From assembly GCA_028281005.1 (NCBI GenBank), contig JANQKS010000009.1:1-41597 (forward strand): a stretch of DNA of 41,597 bases, read 5' to 3'. The position numbers and the translations under genes were made by a program. How positions within the stretch are numbered: the first letter of the stretch is position 1; each line of letters begins with the position of its first letter. Under the pieces are notes generated by a model. The model searched no databases, was not told the DNA's origin, and saw only the letters and a program-made list of their open reading frames with translations. The DNA is from Pseudomonadales bacterium (GTDB taxonomy: Bacteria; Pseudomonadota; Gammaproteobacteria; Pseudomonadales; Azotimanducaceae). This document shows positions 1,022-32,868 of this stretch, piece by piece.

Positions 1022-2715
1022 CTGAGTTCGGACTTGAATACGGCCTCAAACTCACCGTGTTGTTTTGCATTCCGATTGCACTGGCGGCCGCAGGCCGTTT
1101 TGTTTCCGCTGACGCGCGTTCACGAGCCACTGTTTCAGTGTTTACCATGGCGTTGCTCTTGCCGATTGCACTTCTGACAGTGCCAGAGTTTTCTTTGAGT
1201 CCTGTTGCTATCGAGGCTACCAAGCCGCTTGCTCATTTCCCCGGATTCCATGGTGCTTTTGGACCGAGTACGCTCGCAGGGTCAGTCGCTGATGCGTCCG
1301 CTGATTTTTCGCCATGGTTGGCAAGTGCGCTGTATGTCGGATTTGTTGTGGTCACTGTGTTTCTTCTGGCGAGAGTCGCTTTCGGAGTTTTTCGCGCGTT
1401 GAACATTGGCCGACCGCTCCCGCCAATTTGCGACCCACACATCGAACAACTTGCAAGATCAGTGGCCACTCAGCTTGGTCTGGAGAGGCAAGTCGAACTG
1501 AAATTTCAGAATCTGACTGGCACACCCTTCGTTTGCGGTGTATTCCCGCCGATCGTGGCGTTGCCGTTCGACTTTGTCGAGTGGCCGGAAGCGAAACAGC
1601 GTGCAGCCCTCAGTCACGAGTTTGCGCACATATATCGCGGCGACCACACGAAATACGTATTTGTGCAATTTGCCGCCTCAATTCTGTGGTGGCACCCACT
1701 TGCTCTGTATGCTGCTTATAGATACAGAGGTGATATCGAGCAAGCGTGCGATGACATGGTCGTTAGTCAGGGTACGCAACACGCCACGTATGCAAAGTAC
1801 CTTCTCGAAGTAGCGAGACAACAAAACTCTACAACGCAAAAACTCGCTATTCATATGGCCGCAGGAAACGCGCTTCGACGCCGAGTCAGCGCTCTAATGA
1901 ATCCCGGACAAAGGAGATCTCACATGTCCAATACCCAAAAACGTATGCTCACACTCACAGCGGCTGTTGTGCTGTACGGCGTTGGCGCAGCTCAAATTAG
2001 TGCTGCTCAGCCCGATGACCGACGTTACATGCCCATATTTAAAGTCGTCCCCGAGTATCCTCCCGCTGCTGAGGCCCAGCGAATAGAAGGCTTCGTTTTA
2101 GTCGAGTTCGACGTTGATGCGCAAGGTAAGCCGGTCAACATCCATACGGTCGACCAGTCGCCCGCAGATGGCATATTTGAAGCGTCTGCTGTAGCCGCCA
2201 CTGAACGATTCCGCTATTTGCCTGAAAGACAGGCAGGATCCGATGTGACGAAACAAGGTGTACGGAATCGCCTGACTTTCAGCCTCGCTGACGAAAACGA
2301 CAGTGCTAACACTCAAATCGACTCCGTTGACGAACTCGCCCGTTCAAGCAAGCAAGCGCGGAAACAATTGACAGAGCAACTGCACGAAGACATTGCAAAT
2401 GCCGAAAAAAGTACGAACGCTGATCAGTTTGTAAGGCTTGCTAAAGTCGCCTTGGAAATAGACCCGGCAGTAGCAGAGTATCTGATTGTACGGGCCAGCC
2501 AAATCGGCACGCCTAATACTAACGAGTTGCGTATGGTCGGCGGCAGGGTTCTTCATCGCCGCGGCGCGCATCGAGATGCGATTGAGCTTTTTCGGAGCGT
2601 GACTGATGGAACGGCCGAGCAGACAGAGTTGGCGAGCCGATGGGTAACGTATCTTGAGCGCGAGATAGCGCGCACAGCCGTTGTGCATTCGACGCTCGTG
2701 GGTCTTGCTCGTTAG
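1018..2715 (+). CDS. M56-family (BlaR1/MecR1-like) membrane metallopeptidase with TonB C-terminal domain
   Basis: A 565-residue inner-membrane protein with hydrophobic segments near residues 8-26, 38-56, 100-122 and 311-331. The M56 zinc motif HEFAH is at residues 200-204, and CDDMVV some 45 residues later supplies the typical downstream acidic residue. In BlaR1/MecR1 this domain inactivates the cognate repressor; here that repressor is the overlapping upstream gene. After the last membrane segment, residues about 337-425 (PEYPPAAEAQRIEGFVLVEF onwards) look like a TonB C-terminal domain placed in the periplasm, followed by a helical, possibly TPR-like tail. There is no penicillin-binding sensor domain, so the signal is probably not a beta-lactam. 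Function in detail is inferred from the family. Confidence 0.85.
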   Translation: MTEFGLEYGLKLTVLFCIPIALAAAGRFVSADARSRATVSVFTMALLLPIALLTVPEFSLSPVAIEATKPLAHFPGFHGAFGPSTLAGSVADASADFSPWLASALYVGFVVVTVFLLARVAFGVFRALNIGRPLPPICDPHIEQLARSVATQLGLERQVELKFQNLTGTPFVCGVFPPIVALPFDFVEWPEAKQRAALSHEFAHIYRGDHTKYVFVQFAASILWWHPLALYAAYRYRGDIEQACDDMVVSQGTQHATYAKYLLEVARQQNSTTQKLAIHMAAGNALRRRVSALMNPGQRRSHMSNTQKRMLTLTAAVVLYGVGAAQISAAQPDDRRYMPIFKVVPEYPPAAEAQRIEGFVLVEFDVDAQGKPVNIHTVDQSPADGIFEASAVAATERFRYLPERQAGSDVTKQGVRNRLTFSLADENDSANTQIDSVDELARSSKQARKQLTEQLHEDIANAEKSTNADQFVRLAKVALEIDPAVAEYLIVRASQIGTPNTNELRMVGGRVLHRRGAHRDAIELFRSVTDGTAEQTELASRWVTYLEREIARTAVVHSTLVGLAR

Positions 2716-2771
2716 CAGTGGCTCGTGTTGCAACCATCCGCTAGTGTCCTGTTTGGTTAACTCGTTGAGCT

Positions 2772-3269
2772 ATGACGCGAATTCACATCACAGGAAATGC
2801 GGGGAGTGGTAAGTCGACGCTCGCAAAGCATATCGGATGCTCACTTGATCTCCCCGTTAGCGGATTGGATGAAGTCGTTTGGTCACCGGGGTGGAAAAAG
2901 ACACCCATGGATGAGCGCGAGACGCTTGAGGAGTCCTTGGTAGCGGAACCGAGCTGGGTGATAGAAGGTGTTTCTGGCATCGTCAGAAAGGCTGCTGATG
3001 TTGTCATTCTATTGGACGTGAGTAGGCCAATCTCCTACTACCGCTGTGCCAAGAGAAATTGGAGATATCTGTTCCGAAGTCGTCCAGGATTGCCACCACG
3101 CTGCCCGGAGATATTGATTGTTCCGCGCCTTGTACGTTTGATTTGGAACTTTCCGCTCAGAATCCAGCCGCAAATACTCGCTGACATGCAACGCGCACCA
3201 GCGAGATTTTTCCATGTTACTAACGACCACGATCTGGATGCGGTCCTCGCGGAACTCGGCGTTCGGTGA
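2772..3269 (+). CDS. Small P-loop NTPase, adenylate kinase/topology-modulation (FlaR)-like
   Basis: A 165-residue protein with a Walker A motif GNAGSGKS at residues 8-15, directly after the first beta strand, followed by LAKHIG and the strand-loop LPVSGLDEVVW. This is the layout of small kinase-like proteins annotated as DNA topology modulation protein FlaR or adenylate kinase-related. WVIEGV and VVILLD correspond to later strands of the P-loop fold, and YYRCAKRN to a lid-type arginine region. No substrate can be named. It lies 56 bp after the peptidase gene on the same strand, with only a weak ribosome site, so co-transcription is possible but not certain. Confidence 0.8.
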   Translation: MTRIHITGNAGSGKSTLAKHIGCSLDLPVSGLDEVVWSPGWKKTPMDERETLEESLVAEPSWVIEGVSGIVRKAADVVILLDVSRPISYYRCAKRNWRYLFRSRPGLPPRCPEILIVPRLVRLIWNFPLRIQPQILADMQRAPARFFHVTNDHDLDAVLAELGVR

Positions 3270-3303
3270 GCGTTCGTTCCTAGCCGCTCGGAGCCAAATT
3301 GGA

Positions 3304-3320
3304 GGCGACCCTAAGTCGCC
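3304..3320. terminator. Possible hairpin between converging genes
   Basis: GGCGAC and GTCGCC form a 6-bp stem with a 5-nt loop. An alternative, wider pairing of GGAGGCG (3301-3307) with CGCCTCC (3327-3333) also exists. The hairpin lies 34 bp after the NTPase stop and overlaps the stop of the small minus-strand ORF. There is no T-run, so intrinsic termination is uncertain. Confidence 0.35.
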
Positions 3321-3526
3321 GGTTCGCGCCTCCCCGAGATCAGATACAAGATGCTCAAGAACCACGCTACCAACAACACGCCGGGCGCCAAAACAGCGAC
3401 TGCACCGATTGACTCCATACTGCTGACTCGAGCCGAAAGATCCGGATGTTGCTCAACGATATGCTGAATCCTGAGCACCGTGCTTCGGACGGCAAGCGTG
3501 GGTAGCAAGAGAAAGATCGTGGACAT
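3311..3526 (-). CDS. Small putative membrane protein, 71 aa
   Basis: I do not recognise a family. The predicted product has a hydrophobic N-terminus (TIFLLLPTLAV) and a clear membrane span near residues 41-64 (IGAVAVLAPGVLLVAWFLSI), ending in a short basic tail. It begins with ATG at 3526, has no strong Shine-Dalgarno, and converges on the NTPase gene with a hairpin at the junction. It is the only open frame with protein-like composition in this 570-bp stretch, but its short length leaves real doubt. Confidence 0.4.
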   Translation of the reverse strand: MSTIFLLLPTLAVRSTVLRIQHIVEQHPDLSARVSSMESIGAVAVLAPGVLLVAWFLSILYLISGRREPAT

Positions 3527-3831
3527 CCATTGCTGCTTGCCCGGCTGCCATCTGTGCGTTTGTTAGAAAGTCATGGAATTTGTACTCTGTCATACTTCAA
3601 GCCTCCGCAGGCGTCTTTGGGTCATGGTAGCAGCGCTGATTCAGACGCCGTTCTTTGGCTGGCCGGATATGGCCCGATCTGCGCCGCTACAACTCACAGG
3701 TGGCTCTCGCAGATGGCTTTTATACCTCCCAACTGTCCAGCCTTCAGACTGCGGTAATGGACAAGTACAATTAAAATACTTAGAGCCGAGTCGAGTCCCA
3801 ACGCAGATTCGGCCTAGACGAGCAGTTTTTG
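3527..3831. other. Intergenic stretch upstream of the SDR gene
   Basis: I see no convincing gene. The open plus-strand frames (3530-3757, 3573-3845) have low-complexity, Arg/Ser-rich translations unlike real proteins. The A/T-rich part at 3764-3780 contains TACAAT (3766-3771) and TAAAAT (3772-3777), plausible -10 boxes for the following gene, but no good -35 is evident. A strong GGAGGAG ribosome site follows at 3831-3837. Confidence 0.4.
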
Positions 3832-8553: not shown

Positions 8554-10020
8554 GTGAGCAAAAGAGCTCTGCTCGCACAGAGCATCAATATTCACCATTT
8601 TCTCGATCACGATCGAACGCTGCGTTTGTCCCAACGCAGTGCCCGCGACCGTGCCATTGGCCGCGAGCTAGAGGGGGGTAAAGCAGCGCTATCCGACACG
8701 GATAAAGTGTTGGCTTGGTGGCGGTCCATGCAGTCCACGCCATCGGACAAATCCCAACCAGACTCGGGTGAGCGTGTTATCTCGGTGCGCCGCTGGTTAA
8801 ATATATTGTTGCTGGCGGGTGGCATCCTGTTGGGTGCCGGCGCAGGTAGTCTTGCATTGACGTTTGACGGCAGCTATCCGGTGAATTTGCTGGCGTTTTT
8901 AGGGGTGATGGTTGGACTGCCTGGGGTACTGCTCATCCTCACCCTGGTGAGCATGGTCTGGCGCACCAGTCGCTTCGGCGTGGCGGGTAAAAGCCCTGTC
9001 AGCCGTGCCCCACATTCCATGTTGCAGCTGAACAGTTGGCTGTTGGGTTTATGGGAGCGGCTCAGCGGAGGGGTTTGGCAGAGCGGCTATGGGCAGTCCA
9101 ATGCCCGCGGGCGTTTTGCCTATTGGCAGGTGGTGTCGTTTGCACAGCTTTTTTCCGTGGGTTTCTTCATTGGCGCGTTAATGATGTTGGCACTGCTGGT
9201 GGTGGCAACAGATTTAGCGTTTGGCTGGAGCACCACCCTTGAACTGCAGGCATCCGCGGTGCATGCATGGTTTGCCGCCATCGCCTTGCCGTGGGTGAAT
9301 GTTTGGCGGGAAGCGGTGCCTGATCTGGCGTTGGTGGAAGTGTCTCGCTTCTATCGCTTGGAGGGCGATATGCTGGAAGCCAGGGCGGCACGGTTGGGCG
9401 AGTGGTGGCCGTTTGTGTTCATGACTCTGTTGGTGTGGGGTTTGTTGCCGCGTTTGCTGATGCTGGCATGGTGCCGATGGCGGCTGAATGCCGCGACCGA
9501 GGTGCTATTGCGGGAGCACAGCGAGGTCACTGCGTTGCTGGACCGTATGTCCACACCAGCGTTGGCGTTGGGTGAGGATGTTCATACCGAAGTACCGGTG
9601 TCGGAGCCCGGCAAAGAAGCGGTGAAACTCAACAATTTCGATCAAGCCAGAGTGGTGGTGTGGAACGAAGCGCTGGCGTTAAGCGGTGCACAATTGGCGC
9701 TCGGCAGTGTGCTGAGTGATGCTGAGTTGCAGGCGCGGATACAACAGTTGGCGCCCCGTGCCGAGCGCGTGTTGGTGATGGTGAAAGCTTGGGAGCCACC
9801 CACGTTGGAAGTCCTCGACGTGTTACACCTGTTGCGTCGTCAAGTGGGTGCGGGATGCAGCATTTTGATTACGCCCGTGGGTTTGCCAGAGCAGGATTTC
9901 CAGCCTGCAGGCGATGACGTGCAGGTATGGTCGGCGGCAGTGGCCAAGCTGGCCGATCCGCACAGCTATGTGGCCCAGGCTGAGCCGGGTTTAATTACGG
10001 TGGAGCGTCACCATGGTTGA
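8554..10020 (+). CDS. DUF2868-family integral membrane protein
   Basis: A 488-residue membrane protein with segments near residues 80-100, 108-133, 200-225 and 285-305. The N-terminal signature RSARDRAIGRELEG and the layout (two early spans, a loop, further spans, a long cytosolic tail) agree with DUF2868, known mainly as the partner of DUF3482 GTPases. Its start is a GTG at 8554, 8 bp after the previous stop. Its end overlaps the DUF3482 GTPase gene by 8 bp, strong evidence that the two act together, probably as a membrane-anchored GTPase system. No biochemical role is established to my knowledge. Confidence 0.85.
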   Translation: MSKRALLAQSINIHHFLDHDRTLRLSQRSARDRAIGRELEGGKAALSDTDKVLAWWRSMQSTPSDKSQPDSGERVISVRRWLNILLLAGGILLGAGAGSLALTFDGSYPVNLLAFLGVMVGLPGVLLILTLVSMVWRTSRFGVAGKSPVSRAPHSMLQLNSWLLGLWERLSGGVWQSGYGQSNARGRFAYWQVVSFAQLFSVGFFIGALMMLALLVVATDLAFGWSTTLELQASAVHAWFAAIALPWVNVWREAVPDLALVEVSRFYRLEGDMLEARAARLGEWWPFVFMTLLVWGLLPRLLMLAWCRWRLNAATEVLLREHSEVTALLDRMSTPALALGEDVHTEVPVSEPGKEAVKLNNFDQARVVVWNEALALSGAQLALGSVLSDAELQARIQQLAPRAERVLVMVKAWEPPTLEVLDVLHLLRRQVGAGCSILITPVGLPEQDFQPAGDDVQVWSAAVAKLADPHSYVAQAEPGLITVERHHG

Positions 10021-27378: not shown

Positions 27379-28386
27379 TTATGCCAGCCGGGCCAGGTGC
27401 TCGCGTTTCACCTGGTGGTGCAGACGCATGCCGCGGTGATAGCGGTCCAGTTCGGCGATGATATAGTCGGTCAGGCGCTGGGTTTCGTTGCCCAGCGAAC
27501 CCGCGATGTGCGGTGTAAGGAAAACGTTGGGTAGTGTGTACAATGGATTGTCTGGGGGTAACACTTCGGGATCAGTGGTGTCGAGCACCGCAAACAAGCG
27601 CCCGCGCACTAACTCGGCCTCCAGTGCGGCCTGGTCAATGATGGCGCCACGCGCGGTGTTGATCAGCACCGCACCGTCCTGCATCAGTGCCAGTTCTCTG
27701 GCGCCTAACATGCTGCGGGTGTCCTGCAACAACGGTGCATGCAGGCTGACCACATCAGCTTGGCTTAGCAGTTCGGTCAAACCCACTTTGTTGGCGCCTT
27801 TTTGGCGTGCCTGCAAAGGTGTTGTATAGGGGTCGTAGAGCAGCACCCGTAGATCAAATTGTTGCAAATAGTCGATCACCAGTTGCCCAACGTGGGATGC
27901 GCCTATGATGCCGACGGTTTTGCCGTAGTTACCCACGTTGGGTGTTTCCTTGGTCCACGGCGCACGATTGTCTTTGTGGGTGGTATACAGCTGGTTAAGC
28001 TGAAACACCTGTTTATTGGCAAACAAAATGGCCGCCAGGGTGTACTCCGCTACCGGTACCGCGTTGGCGGCCACCGCGTTGACTACCTGGATGCCGCGCC
28101 GCCAAACGGCGTCGTCGATAAACCCTTTCACTGAGCCGGCGAGGTGTGCGATGAGACGCAAGCGGGGTGCCAGATCGATGGTGGCCTCGTCGATGCGCGG
28201 ACACCCCCAACTGGTGACCAACACCTCAATCTGACTAAGGTGTGGCCCGAGAGATTCGAGATCGCGAAACGGCGTATCTGACACAAGCGAACTCACGCGC
28301 GACAACGTTTCCACATGGTCGGGACGAAACAACTCGTCCTTCACCACGGGGTGCATGAGTAAAGCGGTCACCGGCGTTTTGGCCAT
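27379..28386 (-). CDS. D-isomer-specific 2-hydroxyacid dehydrogenase
   Basis: A 335-residue NAD-dependent dehydrogenase. The nucleotide loop is VGIIGASHVGQLV (the usual G-x-G-x-x-G reads G-A-S-H-V-G). The active-site residues are seen as R in LINTARGAIIDQAAL, E in DTTDPEVLPPDNPL, and H in FLTPHIAG. The family interconverts D-2-hydroxy acids and 2-keto acids, or acts on phosphoglycerate or formate; VLVTSWGCPRIDEATIDLAP places it with uncharacterised hydroxyacid dehydrogenases. I chose ATG 28386 (MAKTPVTALLMHP) over longer frames that cross into the divergent dUTPase gene. It heads the four-gene operon that continues with the acyl-CoA dehydrogenase pair and the MBL protein. Confidence 0.9.
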   Translation of the reverse strand: MAKTPVTALLMHPVVKDELFRPDHVETLSRVSSLVSDTPFRDLESLGPHLSQIEVLVTSWGCPRIDEATIDLAPRLRLIAHLAGSVKGFIDDAVWRRGIQVVNAVAANAVPVAEYTLAAILFANKQVFQLNQLYTTHKDNRAPWTKETPNVGNYGKTVGIIGASHVGQLVIDYLQQFDLRVLLYDPYTTPLQARQKGANKVGLTELLSQADVVSLHAPLLQDTRSMLGARELALMQDGAVLINTARGAIIDQAALEAELVRGRLFAVLDTTDPEVLPPDNPLYTLPNVFLTPHIAGSLGNETQRLTDYIIAELDRYHRGMRLHHQVKREHLARLA

Positions 28387-28452
28387 GTTCCAAAGAATAC
28401 CCCATAATCCCTGCTGTCTAACAACAGCTTGCGTAGGGCGCTTAAGGGACCC

Positions 28453-29091
28453 ATGGATTTGAAACAGGCCGTCGACATGCTTAACACCATGGCCAGCATG
28501 CAAGAACAGCACAACCAACAGGTACACGCCGAGTGGCGCGCGCAAGGTTATGAATACTACCGGGCGATCTGGGTGGAGTGTGCGGAGATGCTCGACCACT
28601 TTGGCTGGAAGTGGTGGAAGAAGCAAAACCCGGACATTGATCAGGTCAAGCTTGAATTGGTGGATATCTGGCACTTCGCCTTAAGTGAGATGATTCGTGC
28701 CGGTACGTTGAGTGAGTCCGTGGGTGCGCAGCTAAGTCAAACACGAGCTGTCGCCGAGTCTGACCCGGAAGCCTTTCGCCGTGCGATCGAAGACTTGGCG
28801 GCGTCCAGTTTAGCGACCCAGTCATTTAAAATGGCGCCGTTTATGGAGGCGATGCGCACCTTGCCCATGAGCTACGACGAGCTTTACGGCATGTACATCG
28901 GCAAGAACGTACTGAATCAGTTTCGTCAGAACAATGGCTACCAGAGCGGCGAGTACCGCAAACTGTGGCAAGGTCGTGAAGACAACGAGCATCTGGTGGA
29001 AGTGTTGGCTGATTTGGCAGACAATCCGGTGGGGTTGCCGGAGCGGCTTTATCAGGCCTTGACCGAACGTTATGTCGCCGACGCGCCTTAA
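28453..29091 (+). CDS. Dimeric (all-alpha) dUTP diphosphatase-like protein
   Basis: A 212-residue all-helical NTP pyrophosphohydrolase of the dimeric dUTPase/MazG superfamily. The metal-binding E-x-x-E type motifs appear as WVECAEMLDHFGWKWWKK and LELVDIWHFALSEMI, and the late helix YIGKNVLNQFRQNNGYQSGE matches dimeric dUTPases, including the nucleoside-binding asparagines. It should hydrolyse dUTP to dUMP and pyrophosphate, limiting uracil in DNA and feeding thymidylate synthesis. ATG 28453 is preceded by AAGGGA. It is divergent from the hydroxyacid dehydrogenase (66 bp). Trimeric Dut, if present, would be elsewhere. Confidence 0.9.
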   Translation: MDLKQAVDMLNTMASMQEQHNQQVHAEWRAQGYEYYRAIWVECAEMLDHFGWKWWKKQNPDIDQVKLELVDIWHFALSEMIRAGTLSESVGAQLSQTRAVAESDPEAFRRAIEDLAASSLATQSFKMAPFMEAMRTLPMSYDELYGMYIGKNVLNQFRQNNGYQSGEYRKLWQGREDNEHLVEVLADLADNPVGLPERLYQALTERYVADAP

Positions 29092-29401: not shown

Positions 29402-30994
29402 TCACATCAGCATCTCCGCCACCTTCTCACCGATCATCACGGTGGTTAGGTGGGTATTGGCGCAGGGCACAGTGGGCATCACCGAGGCATCGGCAACGGT
29501 TAAGTTCTGGAATCCCCGCACTTGGCATTCAGGGTCCACCACAGCCTGCGGATCGTCCGCCCCTCCCATGCGGCAGGTACTGGTGGCGTGCTGCGCGTCT
29601 CCGGCGACTGCCAACGTCAACTCGTCCAACTGGTCGCCTGACAACGCCAGCAGTTGTTCAAGATGGATAGGTTCATCCCCGCCGCCAACCCAGCCCCCGG
29701 GGGATAGATAAACTTGCTCGGCAATGGCCTGCACCGCGTCGTGTTGAGCCAGTTGGGTGAGGCGGCGGATGCCGTCGCGCATACGTAGCAGATCACCCGG
29801 TGCGTCCAGCATGTTTTCTTCGATGATGGGTTGTGTGCGCGGGTCCGGGGACGCAATCCTTAGTGCTCCGGTAGAGAAACATTGATTGACCCAAACCCCC
29901 AGCATGCCTATGCCTTGGGGATTATCCTGCAAGTCTTCGCGCCCTAAGCTGTCACCCAGGCGATTCATGGCCACCATCATCATGTCGCCCGCACCGGCGT
30001 CGGCGAGACCGGAACTGTAACGTACACAGCAGTTGGTGTGACGGAAACCCGGCTTGGGCACGGCCTCGGGACGCAGTGCCAAGACCAAGGACACCAGCGG
30101 ATGGTCCTGGAAGTTGCGTCCCACCGGCAGATCGGCACGCACCTCAACACCGGCCTCATCTAGCCAGTCTGTCGGCCCAATCCCAGAGCGTTGTAAAACG
30201 GTAGGCGAGTGCACCGCGCCTGCCGACAAAATCACGTGGTGGGCTTGGATCTCTTCGCGACGGTTGCCCTGCAAAACGCTGACGCCACAAGCACGATCCC
30301 TAGCAAACAGCACTTGGTCGACCTGTGCATCGCCGCGGATGGTCAGATTGTTGCGGCCGCGTATCGGTTCCAGATAGCCATCGTTGGTGGAGACTCTTTG
30401 TTGCTCGAAGCTGTTGATGGCGTATGGGGATACACCCAGGGCATGCGGGGCATTGTGGTCGGCACTCCATGTATAACCGGCATCCAGCGCAGTTTCGGCC
30501 AGGGCTTGGTCCACCGGTCCCCACAAATTTACCGGCGCGCGGTAAATGGGAATTGGCCCGTCGTCGCCATGAAAGTCCTCGTGGCCGTAACGCAGGTCGG
30601 TCTCTGAGCGGCAGAAGTAAGGCAATACAGCGTCGAAGTCCCAGCCTGCACACCCGGCTTGCGACCAACGCGCAAAATCTTCGGGTACGCCGCGGATGGC
30701 AATTTGGCCGTTCATGGCGGAGCTGCCACCCAAGCCGCGCCCGCGCCAATACAGCTGCGGATCCTGCGCCCGGGTACGCCGGGCCAGCAGGTCGTCATAA
30801 CGAAAATGGCTGTATTCGGGTGCGGTCACGATGGCGGATGGATTGGGTGAGCGCATCGCCGGCGGTGCATCGGCGCTGCGGTAGTTGATGCCGGCCTCCA
30901 ACAGCAACACTTGGCAAGCCGGGTTAGCGGACAGTCTGGCGGCGAGCACGGCGCCGGCTGAGCCAGCGCCGACGATGACGAAGTCGTATTGCAT
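29402..30994 (-). CDS. GMC-family FAD-dependent oxidoreductase (choline dehydrogenase-like)
   Basis: A 530-residue flavoprotein. The FAD-binding loop GAGSAG is at residues 9-14 (QYDFVIVGAGSAGAVLAARL). The GMC signatures follow: RGRGLGGSSAMNGQIAIRG (signature 1) and HHVILSAGAVHSPTVLQRSG (signature 2). The active-site histidine is in HATSTCRMG, and the second catalytic position is N/H in CANTHLTTVMIGEKVAEML. The family oxidises primary or secondary alcohols, with FADH2 passed to a quinone or oxygen. ATG 30994 begins right at the FAD domain; the upstream extension lacks homology. It is divergent from the selenocysteine-type GST gene (91 bp between the starts). Confidence 0.93.
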   Translation of the reverse strand: MQYDFVIVGAGSAGAVLAARLSANPACQVLLLEAGINYRSADAPPAMRSPNPSAIVTAPEYSHFRYDDLLARRTRAQDPQLYWRGRGLGGSSAMNGQIAIRGVPEDFARWSQAGCAGWDFDAVLPYFCRSETDLRYGHEDFHGDDGPIPIYRAPVNLWGPVDQALAETALDAGYTWSADHNAPHALGVSPYAINSFEQQRVSTNDGYLEPIRGRNNLTIRGDAQVDQVLFARDRACGVSVLQGNRREEIQAHHVILSAGAVHSPTVLQRSGIGPTDWLDEAGVEVRADLPVGRNFQDHPLVSLVLALRPEAVPKPGFRHTNCCVRYSSGLADAGAGDMMMVAMNRLGDSLGREDLQDNPQGIGMLGVWVNQCFSTGALRIASPDPRTQPIIEENMLDAPGDLLRMRDGIRRLTQLAQHDAVQAIAEQVYLSPGGWVGGGDEPIHLEQLLALSGDQLDELTLAVAGDAQHATSTCRMGGADDPQAVVDPECQVRGFQNLTVADASVMPTVPCANTHLTTVMIGEKVAEMLM

Positions 30995-31085
30995 AACGCC
31001 ACGATAGTGACAAATTGGCAGAAATTTGCACGTGGCAAAGGGCGGGTGTAGGTTGCGGGTCATCGAACCTCTTGCGGAGACCACC

Positions 31086-31766
31086 TTGCAATACCATCTC
31101 ATCAGTTCCTTTACCTGACCCTGGGTGCAACGCGCCGTGATTGTGATGCGCGTGAAAAACGTCGAATTTGAAGTGGCCTATATTGATCTGCGCGACAAAC
31201 CGGATTGGTTTCTGCAGATTTCACCCCACGGCAAAGTGCCGGTGTTACAAGTCGACGAGCAGCCGTTGTTTGAATCCAACGCCATTGCCGAGTATTTGGA
31301 TGAGGTAGTGCCGCCACGATTGCACCCCGAGGATGCGCTGATGCGAGCGCGGCACCGGGCGTGGACAGATTTTGTGCCCACCTTTGCCAGCGGTTTAAGT
31401 GTGTATTACGCAAAATCCGCGGAAGAAGTGGAAACGCGCTTACCCCAGGCCCGCCAGCGTTTAGATAAACTCACCGAGGCGCTAGACGCCGACAAACAAC
31501 CCGGTGCGTTTTTTGGCGGTGACGAATTGTGTTTGGTGGACGCTGCGTATGCGCCATTCCTGCAGCGATTCCTGCTGGTGGAGCCATGGCTGCAGACCAG
31601 GTTGTTGGATGATTACCCGGCGGTGCTGGCCTGGGCCGAGGCACTATTACAGGACCCGCGCGTCCAAACGTCCGTATCGCCGAATTTTGAGGCTGAGTTT
31701 GTGAAAAACCTCAAGCGCCGCGGGGTGTATGCCGCGGCTTTGATGCCGGAGGTGTCGGCGGGTTGA
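31086..31766 (+). CDS. Glutathione S-transferase family protein, probable selenoprotein (Sec11 encoded by TGA 31116-31118)
   Basis: Read from TTG 31086, the frame gives MQYHLISSFT-U-PWVQRAVI, then VMRVKNVEFEVAYIDLRDKP, DWFLQISPHGKVPVLQV and LFESNAIAEYLDE: a complete GST thioredoxin-fold domain. The helical C-terminal domain follows (226 residues in all). The only interruption is TGA at codon 11, exactly where Cys-type GSTs have the catalytic cysteine of CPWVQR. GGAG lies 6 nt before the TTG. Downstream, ACGCGC (31130-31135) pairs with GCGCGT (31148-31153) around a 12-nt loop whose second base is G, consistent with a bacterial SECIS. The alternative start GTG 31125 would remove strand 1 and the active site and has no ribosome site. 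A nonsense mutation is the rival explanation. Confidence 0.82.
31119..31158 (+). promoter_or_regulatory. Candidate bacterial SECIS element
   Basis: A 6-bp perfect stem ACGCGC/GCGCGT encloses the 12-nt loop at 31136-31147 (CGTGATTGTGAT). The loop begins 17 nt after the TGA and has G at its second position. These values agree with the published bacterial SECIS model as I remember it (loop 16-37 nt from UGA, G in the first two loop bases). It lies within the coding region, as bacterial SECIS elements do, and would recruit SelB. Confidence 0.65.
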
Positions 31767-31776
31767 GGCAGGCTGT

Positions 31777-32280
31777 TCAGTCGCCGGCCAGCGCAAATTG
31801 ATAAATTCCCAGGGTTTCCTCGTCAAAACAAACAAACACCACCTCGTTTGGCAGCTTACCGCGCCAAGCACGGACGTTGTCCACGGCGATTTGGCACGCG
31901 GCTTGTTTGGGGTAGCCGTATACGCCGGTGCTGATGGCGGGAAACGCCATGCTGGAAATGTGGTGGTCGAGGGCTAGCTGCAAGCTGTTCTGGTAACACG
32001 CGGCAAGTAGCTCAGGCTCATTTTGGTCGCCACCGTGCCATATAGGGCCCACCGTATGGATGACGTGACGGGCGGGGAGCTGGAAGCCGGGGGTCATTTT
32101 AGCTGCGCCGGTTGCACAGCCATTTAAGCCACGGCAGTAAGCCAGCAGCTCTGGACCAGCGGCGCGATGGATTGCGCCATCCACACCGCCGCCGCCGAGC
32201 AGGCTGGAGTTGGCCGCATTCACAATGGCATCCATCGCTAAACTGGTGATGTCGGCAATTTTGGCCGTTATAGCTACCAT
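31777..32280 (-). CDS. Macrodomain protein (O-acetyl-ADP-ribose deacetylase-like)
   Basis: A 167-residue macrodomain. The ADP-ribose-binding motifs are clear: [20 protein letters not shown] followed by IHRAAG, the VIHTVGPIW strand, and [13 protein letters not shown] for the phosphate loop. This is the MacroD/YmdB type, which removes acetyl or ADP-ribose groups from ADP-ribosylated molecules. I chose ATG 32280, which begins directly at the domain; the longer open frame runs over the divergent Nudix gene. It converges on the GST gene with 10 bp between. Nudix and macrodomain genes side by side suggest shared nucleotide or ADP-ribose housekeeping (inference). Confidence 0.92.
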
Positions 32281-32337
32281 ACCAAGGCGTTTAGCACGTA
32301 CCCTTCCGCATCGACAAAAAGTCAGTAAGGAGCCAGT

Positions 32338-32868
32338 TTGTCCCGATCTGCGGTTTGCCTCAATACCCCGTGGTATGCCGCCTGGCAGCCCGAATTTATC
32401 GGCACGTTGTTGTTTGTGCGGCGGGACGATGAAGTGCTGCTCATACACAAGAAAACCGGCCATGGGGCCGGCCGCGTCAACGCCCCCGGCGGCAAGCTTG
32501 AACCGGGAGAAGGGGTGGTGGCTTGTGCCTGCCGTGAAACCCTCGAAGAAGTGGGGGTGCATGCGGTTGATGCTCGGGTGGGTGTGGAAATGCGTTTTGT
32601 CGAACGCAACGGGCCACAGTGGCTGGGATTTGCCCTAACCGCGCAGCAATTTAGCGGCACCCCCAAGGAGACGCGGGAGGCAATTCCGTTCTGGTGCCCG
32701 GTGAAAGACATTCCCTATGCTGATATGTGGCCGGATGACGCCATCTGGCTGCCGCGTCTGCTGGGGCAGACGCCGAACCCGCCGCTGGTGGGCAATTTCC
32801 TGTTTGACAACGAACAGCTACTTGAACATCAGTTTGTCGAATGCGACTCTATCTGGTCGCAGTTTTAG
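32338..32868 (+). CDS. Nudix hydrolase (MutT/MTH1-like)
   Basis: A 176-residue protein containing a perfect Nudix box, [20 protein letters not shown] followed by EVGV (G-x5-E-x7-R-E-x2-E-E-x-G). Context such as [12 protein letters not shown]-type phrasing and [20 protein letters not shown] resembles MTH1-type purine NTP sanitising enzymes, which hydrolyse oxidised nucleotides to monophosphates, though the substrate is not certain. The start TTG 32338 is well supported by TAAGGAG 5 nt upstream. It begins a plus-strand operon: the LLM gene follows after 14 bp and the carboxylase after a further 16 bp. Confidence 0.9.

Follow-up and report, generated by a model that had tools for sequence, protein, structure and literature searches.

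How is a glutathione S-transferase (GST) gene read when its eleventh codon is TGA? This question is raised by positions 31086–31766 of a 41,597 bp stretch of contig JANQKS010000009.1, from a Pseudomonadales bacterium [GCA_028281005.1]; the whole stretch is called the window below. The initial annotation of this DNA proposed an unrecognized selenoprotein. Comparison with relatives, analysis of the downstream hairpin and a search for the selenocysteine (Sec) machinery lead us to a very similar view: 31086–31766 is very probably the gene of a GST-fold selenoprotein, in which UGA 31116 would be decoded as Sec with the aid of the hairpin, at the catalytic position of the cysteine-type enzymes. The features concerned, all on the forward strand, are the following.

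31086–31766, +: predicted Sec-GST gene running from a TTG start to a TGA stop; 226-residue product, Sec as residue 11 (read-through translation, homologues)
31076–31079, +: GGAG, probable ribosome-binding site 6 nt upstream of the TTG (by eye)
31116–31118, +: in-frame TGA, predicted Sec codon for residue 11, immediately N-terminal to helix 1 at residues 12–23 (TGA/cysteine column in relatives)
31130–31153, +: putative hairpin resembling a bacterial selenocysteine insertion sequence (SECIS), 6 bp stem 31130–31135 with 31148–31153, loop 31136–31147 (conserved in 21 TGA genes; no consensus pair predicted in 27 cysteine homologues)

The TGA codon and its column in relatives

As first described, the frame is open from TTG 31086 to the stop codon TGA 31764 and is interrupted by TGA 31116 alone, and GGAG does precede the start codon at the distance given. 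The GST N-terminal domain recognized on both sides of the TGA was also recovered; moreover, reading through the TGA gives a GST of full length with the Pfam domains GST_N_2 (3.7e-19) and GST_C_2 (1.8e-8; top domain PF13409), and the fold of the superfamily is present. Sec11 directly precedes helix 1. The Cys/Sec-Pro pair before this helix is conserved together with V51-P52 and E63-S64, which we take to be residues of the glutathione site. Ten NCBIfam families match the product and none of them at its curated cut-off, so NCBIfam holds no specific model for it. Under the standard code, the open reading frame (ORF) begins only at GTG 31125 and ends at 31766 (213 aa), exactly the shortening by standard callers that had been foreseen. 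The locus thus illustrates why genes of this kind can escape gene callers, since the standard-code ORF begins past the catalytic residue.

Relatives were collected by scanning genome contigs with six peptide patterns, for which reason only close relatives were reached. In total, 90 stretches were obtained, 50 of them encoding relatives, and the TGA column could be aligned in 46 (L063–L066 were left out). The codon at this column was TGA in 19 relatives (L017–L033, L042 and L044) and TGC or TGT in 27, with no other codon, in agreement with the expectation of cysteine (Cys) in homologues. Nonsense mutations scattered over the gene in close relatives, which would have spoken against the proposal, were not observed: the only further in-frame stop within the aligned part of the 19 TGA genes is a TAA in L029, located 215 codons on, at the C-terminal end. 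With L070, from genome G121 of the same family, and the window gene itself, the set analyzed below comprises 21 TGA genes.

Among viral contigs, 12 stretches matched a pattern and none was a relative. On plasmids, relatives were detected in 55 records (E <= 1e-30), every one of them below 60% identity.

The downstream hairpin and the Sec machinery

The hairpin consists of ACGCGC (31130–31135), the 12 nt loop CGTGATTGTGAT (31136–31147) with G in second position, and GCGCGT (31148–31153); its stem begins 11 nt after the TGA. The same 6 bp stem at the same spacing was found in all 21 TGA genes, where 126 of 126 pair cells hold standard pairs; for the 27 Cys genes the figure is 51.9% of 162 cells. 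RNAalifold recovered the stem in the TGA set, plus a small preceding helix that takes in the TGA, and predicted no consensus pair for the 27 Cys relatives.

Codon usage is more informative. Among 64 degenerate columns in which the amino acid is invariant across the 21 TGA genes, only three are restricted to a single codon; they are adjacent (CGC GCC GTG, at +5 to +7) and fall in the stem and the beginning of the loop. These columns contain four, seven and at least eight codons among the 27 Cys genes, amino acid changes included. This constraint is stronger evidence for a SECIS than covariation, and the conservation of TGA and hairpin across 21 genes exceeds chance. One stem pair is altered on both sides, being G-C in 20 genes and A-U in the window; the change is telling because it required both a synonymous CAG to CAA and an Ala to Val replacement.

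According to a 2026 review, the bacterial SECIS model has 16–37 nt from UGA to the apical loop, G within the first two loop positions, an upper stem of 4–16 bp and a loop of 3–9 nt (PMC13188914). The window hairpin agrees with it in the 17 nt to the loop, in the CG at the start of the loop and in the 6 bp stem. Of the hairpin initially claimed, the stem, the loop of 12 nt, the G at loop position 2 and the spacing were retained, while the loop exceeds the published size unless inner pairs form. When 28 nt were folded, an unpaired C was followed by two inner pairs that reduce the loop to 7 nt; these pairs are not conserved, and one of them is absent wherever TTG replaces ATG (12 of the 21 genes). 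Rfam gave no match at E <= 5 over 30500–32000.

The genome of the window (5.14 Mb, 98.67% complete) was searched for the four Sec genes whose absence would have spoken against the proposal. All of them were found, on a single contig, C47: selA (537 bits), selB (451 bits), selC (71.7 bits; tRNA-SeC with anticodon tca by ARAGORN) and selD (277 bits). The last is the C-terminal portion of an ORF of 696 residues (L067:1408–3498), whose N-terminal part is presumably related to pyridine nucleotide-disulfide oxidoreductases. It should be noted that an ORF on the opposite strand (L009:9104–10369), which we take to resemble a DUF222/HNH-endonuclease protein, sits between selB and selC.

The machinery was counted in the genomes of 18 of the 19 TGA relatives from the pattern scan (L017 was left out). 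In 17 of the 18, selB exceeded the cut-off, and in the remaining genome (G025) the contig with the tRNA-Sec also bears a partial selB. A tRNA-Sec above 60 bits was likewise present in 17 (in G006 the best match was a tRNA-Ser), and selA in all except G025. Genome G121 has both selA and selB. Two equal-scoring tRNA-Sec genes were observed in G012, on contigs C32 and C35, where selB is partial and full, respectively; this reflects either a duplication or a two-strain assembly. Sec decoding accompanies the TGA form, yet it also occurs without it: selB was found in 39 of 293 genomes of the order, including both with the TGA gene, and it is not confined to the TGA form because 12 of the 27 genomes of Cys relatives also have selB above the cut-off.

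Predicted function and alternative explanations

If the gene is read as proposed, SelB with selenocysteyl-tRNA(Sec) would dock on the hairpin at 31130–31153 when UGA 31116 is reached, and Sec would be inserted in place of termination. Sec11 would then stand where cysteine-type GSTs (omega, DHAR, TDR1) have their catalytic residue, and its selenolate may attack an oxidized substrate such as dehydroascorbate, a peroxide or a mixed disulfide of glutathione; reduced glutathione (GSH) could then resolve the Se-S-glutathione or selenenic intermediate so formed. Monothiol chemistry is likely because the only cysteine of the product, residue 149, lies far from Sec11 along the chain. By analogy with omega- and DHAR-type Cys-GSTs, the function is therefore likely to be GSH-dependent redox chemistry with Sec11 as the nucleophile. 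A more specific scenario is tentative and, taken as a whole, somewhat doubtful: a fast GSH-dependent Sec peroxidase or deglutathionylase that arose by a single recruitment of a Cys-GST in Pseudomonadota, spread among alpha- and gammaproteobacteria, and is read by a SECIS variant whose 12 nt loop (CGUGAU...) departs from the standard model.

Several observations weigh against a Sec-containing redox enzyme. Hairpins equally good by the criteria used follow 74 of the 1206 TGA triplets of the window (both strands), and the single sequence folded no more stably than its shuffles to any notable degree (z 0.32 at 40 nt, -0.66 at 28 nt and +1.03 at 63 nt); for these reasons the hairpin of the window taken alone is weak evidence for Sec. 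Furthermore, the best fold over 40 or 63 nt differs from the conserved stem. Covariation in the stem is slight, being equalled by 31 of 500 shuffles, with four of six pairs invariant, and, since the sequence here is a run of alternating GC, a stem shifted by two columns leaves 82.5% or 69.8% of cells paired. The 12 nt loop left by the conserved stem is longer than the 3–9 nt of the published model (PMC13188914). No second Sec gene was revealed in the window genome within the two families tried: none of seven molybdopterin-domain matches has a stop inside the matched domain, reading TGA as Sec in one of six molybdopterin-domain loci (L090) gave no clear Sec gene in the ORF list inspected by eye, and SelW (Rdx) gave no match. 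The gene is also rare, as judged from the few matches in genome searches. At E <= 1e-30, 20 of 293 genomes of the order had a match, and the TGA form was limited to two, the window genome and G121 (L070, 63% identity); the 19 loci of the remaining 18 genomes all had TGC or TGT. In a class sample of 369 genomes (E <= 1e-55), the window's own gene was the sole match. Finally, the catalytic role of Sec11 is one that we infer.

A lone TGA in an otherwise ordinary GST gene, viewed in one genome, looks like a nonsense mutation in a pseudogene or a sequencing error. This is extremely improbable here, given that 20 further genes, each from another genome than the window's, have TGA at this codon and an intact frame, and that the codons downstream of it are frozen at the nucleotide level. 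Hardly more probable is a restart at GTG 31125, where the 213-residue standard-code ORF does begin, giving a shortened GST devoid of strand 1 and of the catalytic residue: the YHLISS-type stretch ahead of the TGA is well conserved across relatives, and neither the Cys of homologues nor the frozen hairpin codons would be explained. A third alternative accepts Sec insertion and questions only the chemistry, making the product a GST of the conventional, conjugating type or a GST-fold protein that is not an enzyme, instead of a thiol/peroxide redox enzyme. We consider this unlikely, although far less so than the two preceding explanations. The Cys/Sec-Pro before helix 1 is common to TDR1 and omega GST, and tau GSTs have serine at the catalytic position, which also argues against a conjugating enzyme. 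In addition, Cys-to-Sec conversion is linked to redox catalysis in thiol oxidoreductases (PMC13188914).

Origin, genomic context and comparison with known systems

In a tree of 48 proteins, for which no root was inferred, the 21 Sec genes and L034 grouped together with support of 100/97. Their nearest sister group comprises eight Cys proteins (L035–L041 and L043) from Betaproteobacteria and others, with CPWVQR, CPWVHR or CPWAQR motifs. These are 46–56% identical to the Sec-GST over the best segment, and differ from it by TGC or TGT at the column and by belonging to the Cys set without a consensus hairpin. Within the Sec group, alpha- and gammaproteobacterial genes are intermixed, which suggests transfer or patchy loss. 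Because the root was not inferred, a change from Cys to Sec can be called the likely direction rather than a demonstrated one.

L034 (genome G017) has TGT at the column, and the trees place it within the Sec group. Its stem is broken at one pair, the loop codon GTG is changed to GCG, and the gene ends early, with the C-terminal part missing; G017 has kept selA, its selB contains one TAG, and its best tRNA-Sec candidate is a tRNA-Ser. A second tree was built from 38 of the 48 rows (10 distant Cys rows dropped), with 14 residues from the Sec onward masked; the 21 Sec genes lay on one side of a branch in 0% of 200 bootstrap trees, and placement of L034 outside the Sec group was not rejected by the approximately unbiased (AU) test (p 0.424). 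L034 possibly represents a Sec-to-Cys loss in progress; we leave this as a remark because of the AU result and the early end of the gene. Such losses are called rare in bacteria by the 2026 review (PMC13188914).

The immediate neighbours of the gene, listed for context only, are:

29402–30994, -: GMC oxidoreductase, divergent
31777–32562, -: macro-domain protein, convergent

To look for a conserved operon, we compared the surroundings of the 21 Sec genes and of L034 (22 loci, mostly with about 2 kb of flank); no neighbour was common to more than five loci, the GST and overlapping ORFs aside. Five alphaproteobacterial loci (L020, L023, L024, L028 and L044) have common downstream ORFs, with YCII and ApbA domains where scanned, and neighbours are also common to the pairs L018/L022, L026/L027 and L019/L070. 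As neighbours differ among loci, the context assigns no function to the window gene. A 2-hydroxyacid dehydrogenase-like gene lies 3.7 kb from it (27379–28674), and in L026 and L027 homologues (2707–3756) directly follow the Sec-GST; since the family is common, this recurrence may be due to chance. No promoter-like site was found in 30900–31900. Elsewhere in the window, the gene of a DUF2868 protein (8554–10020) belongs to a row of genes that includes M20-peptidase and DUF1932 members.

The Sargasso Sea selenoproteome of 2005 included GST, with four sequences, among its new selenoprotein families (PMC1088965), and the GOS survey of 2008 counted 12 Sec and 1,036 Cys sequences (PMC2398784); the metagenomic precedent mentioned in the initial annotation is thus real. 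GST or GST-like proteins also appear in the selenoprotein tables of 2022 and 2026 reviews (PMC9312934, PMC13188914), the latter assigning the GST-like selenoprotein domain to PF13409 and describing the functions of such selenoproteins as largely uncharacterized, and Sec GSTs have been reported in algae too (PMC7539508). The Sec-GST is a further member of this already published prokaryotic family, and therefore less novel than first thought. Judged by title and abstract start, no paper in the open-licence literature searched dealt with the biochemistry of a natural Sec-GST from bacteria, which is no proof that there is none. In the window the gene is complete, and its near-complete genome has all of the Sec machinery; the 21 Sec genes with their close Cys sister group provide material for direct comparison of Sec and Cys enzymes.

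The published GST-like selenoproteins (COG0625, PF13409) likewise have Sec where homologues have Cys, and the domain given for them is the top Pfam domain of the window protein, which probably belongs to the same clade. Human GSTO1 and GSTO2, plant DHAR and Leishmania TDR1 are Cys-type GSTs of the same fold, and in the alignments with Leishmania TDR1 and rat GSTO1 the catalytic residue is located at the place of Sec11. They differ in having Cys for Sec and are 23–28% identical to the Sec-GST in the structural alignments listed; no single GST class stands out among the PDB matches, tau, omega and DHAR being within about 2.5 Z. Semisynthetic seleno-GSTs (GST T2-2, hGSTZ1-1 and others) also have Sec in a GST active site, where it confers glutathione peroxidase activity (PMC9944854). 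In contrast to these enzymes, made in the laboratory from serine, the Sec of the window protein would be genetically encoded.
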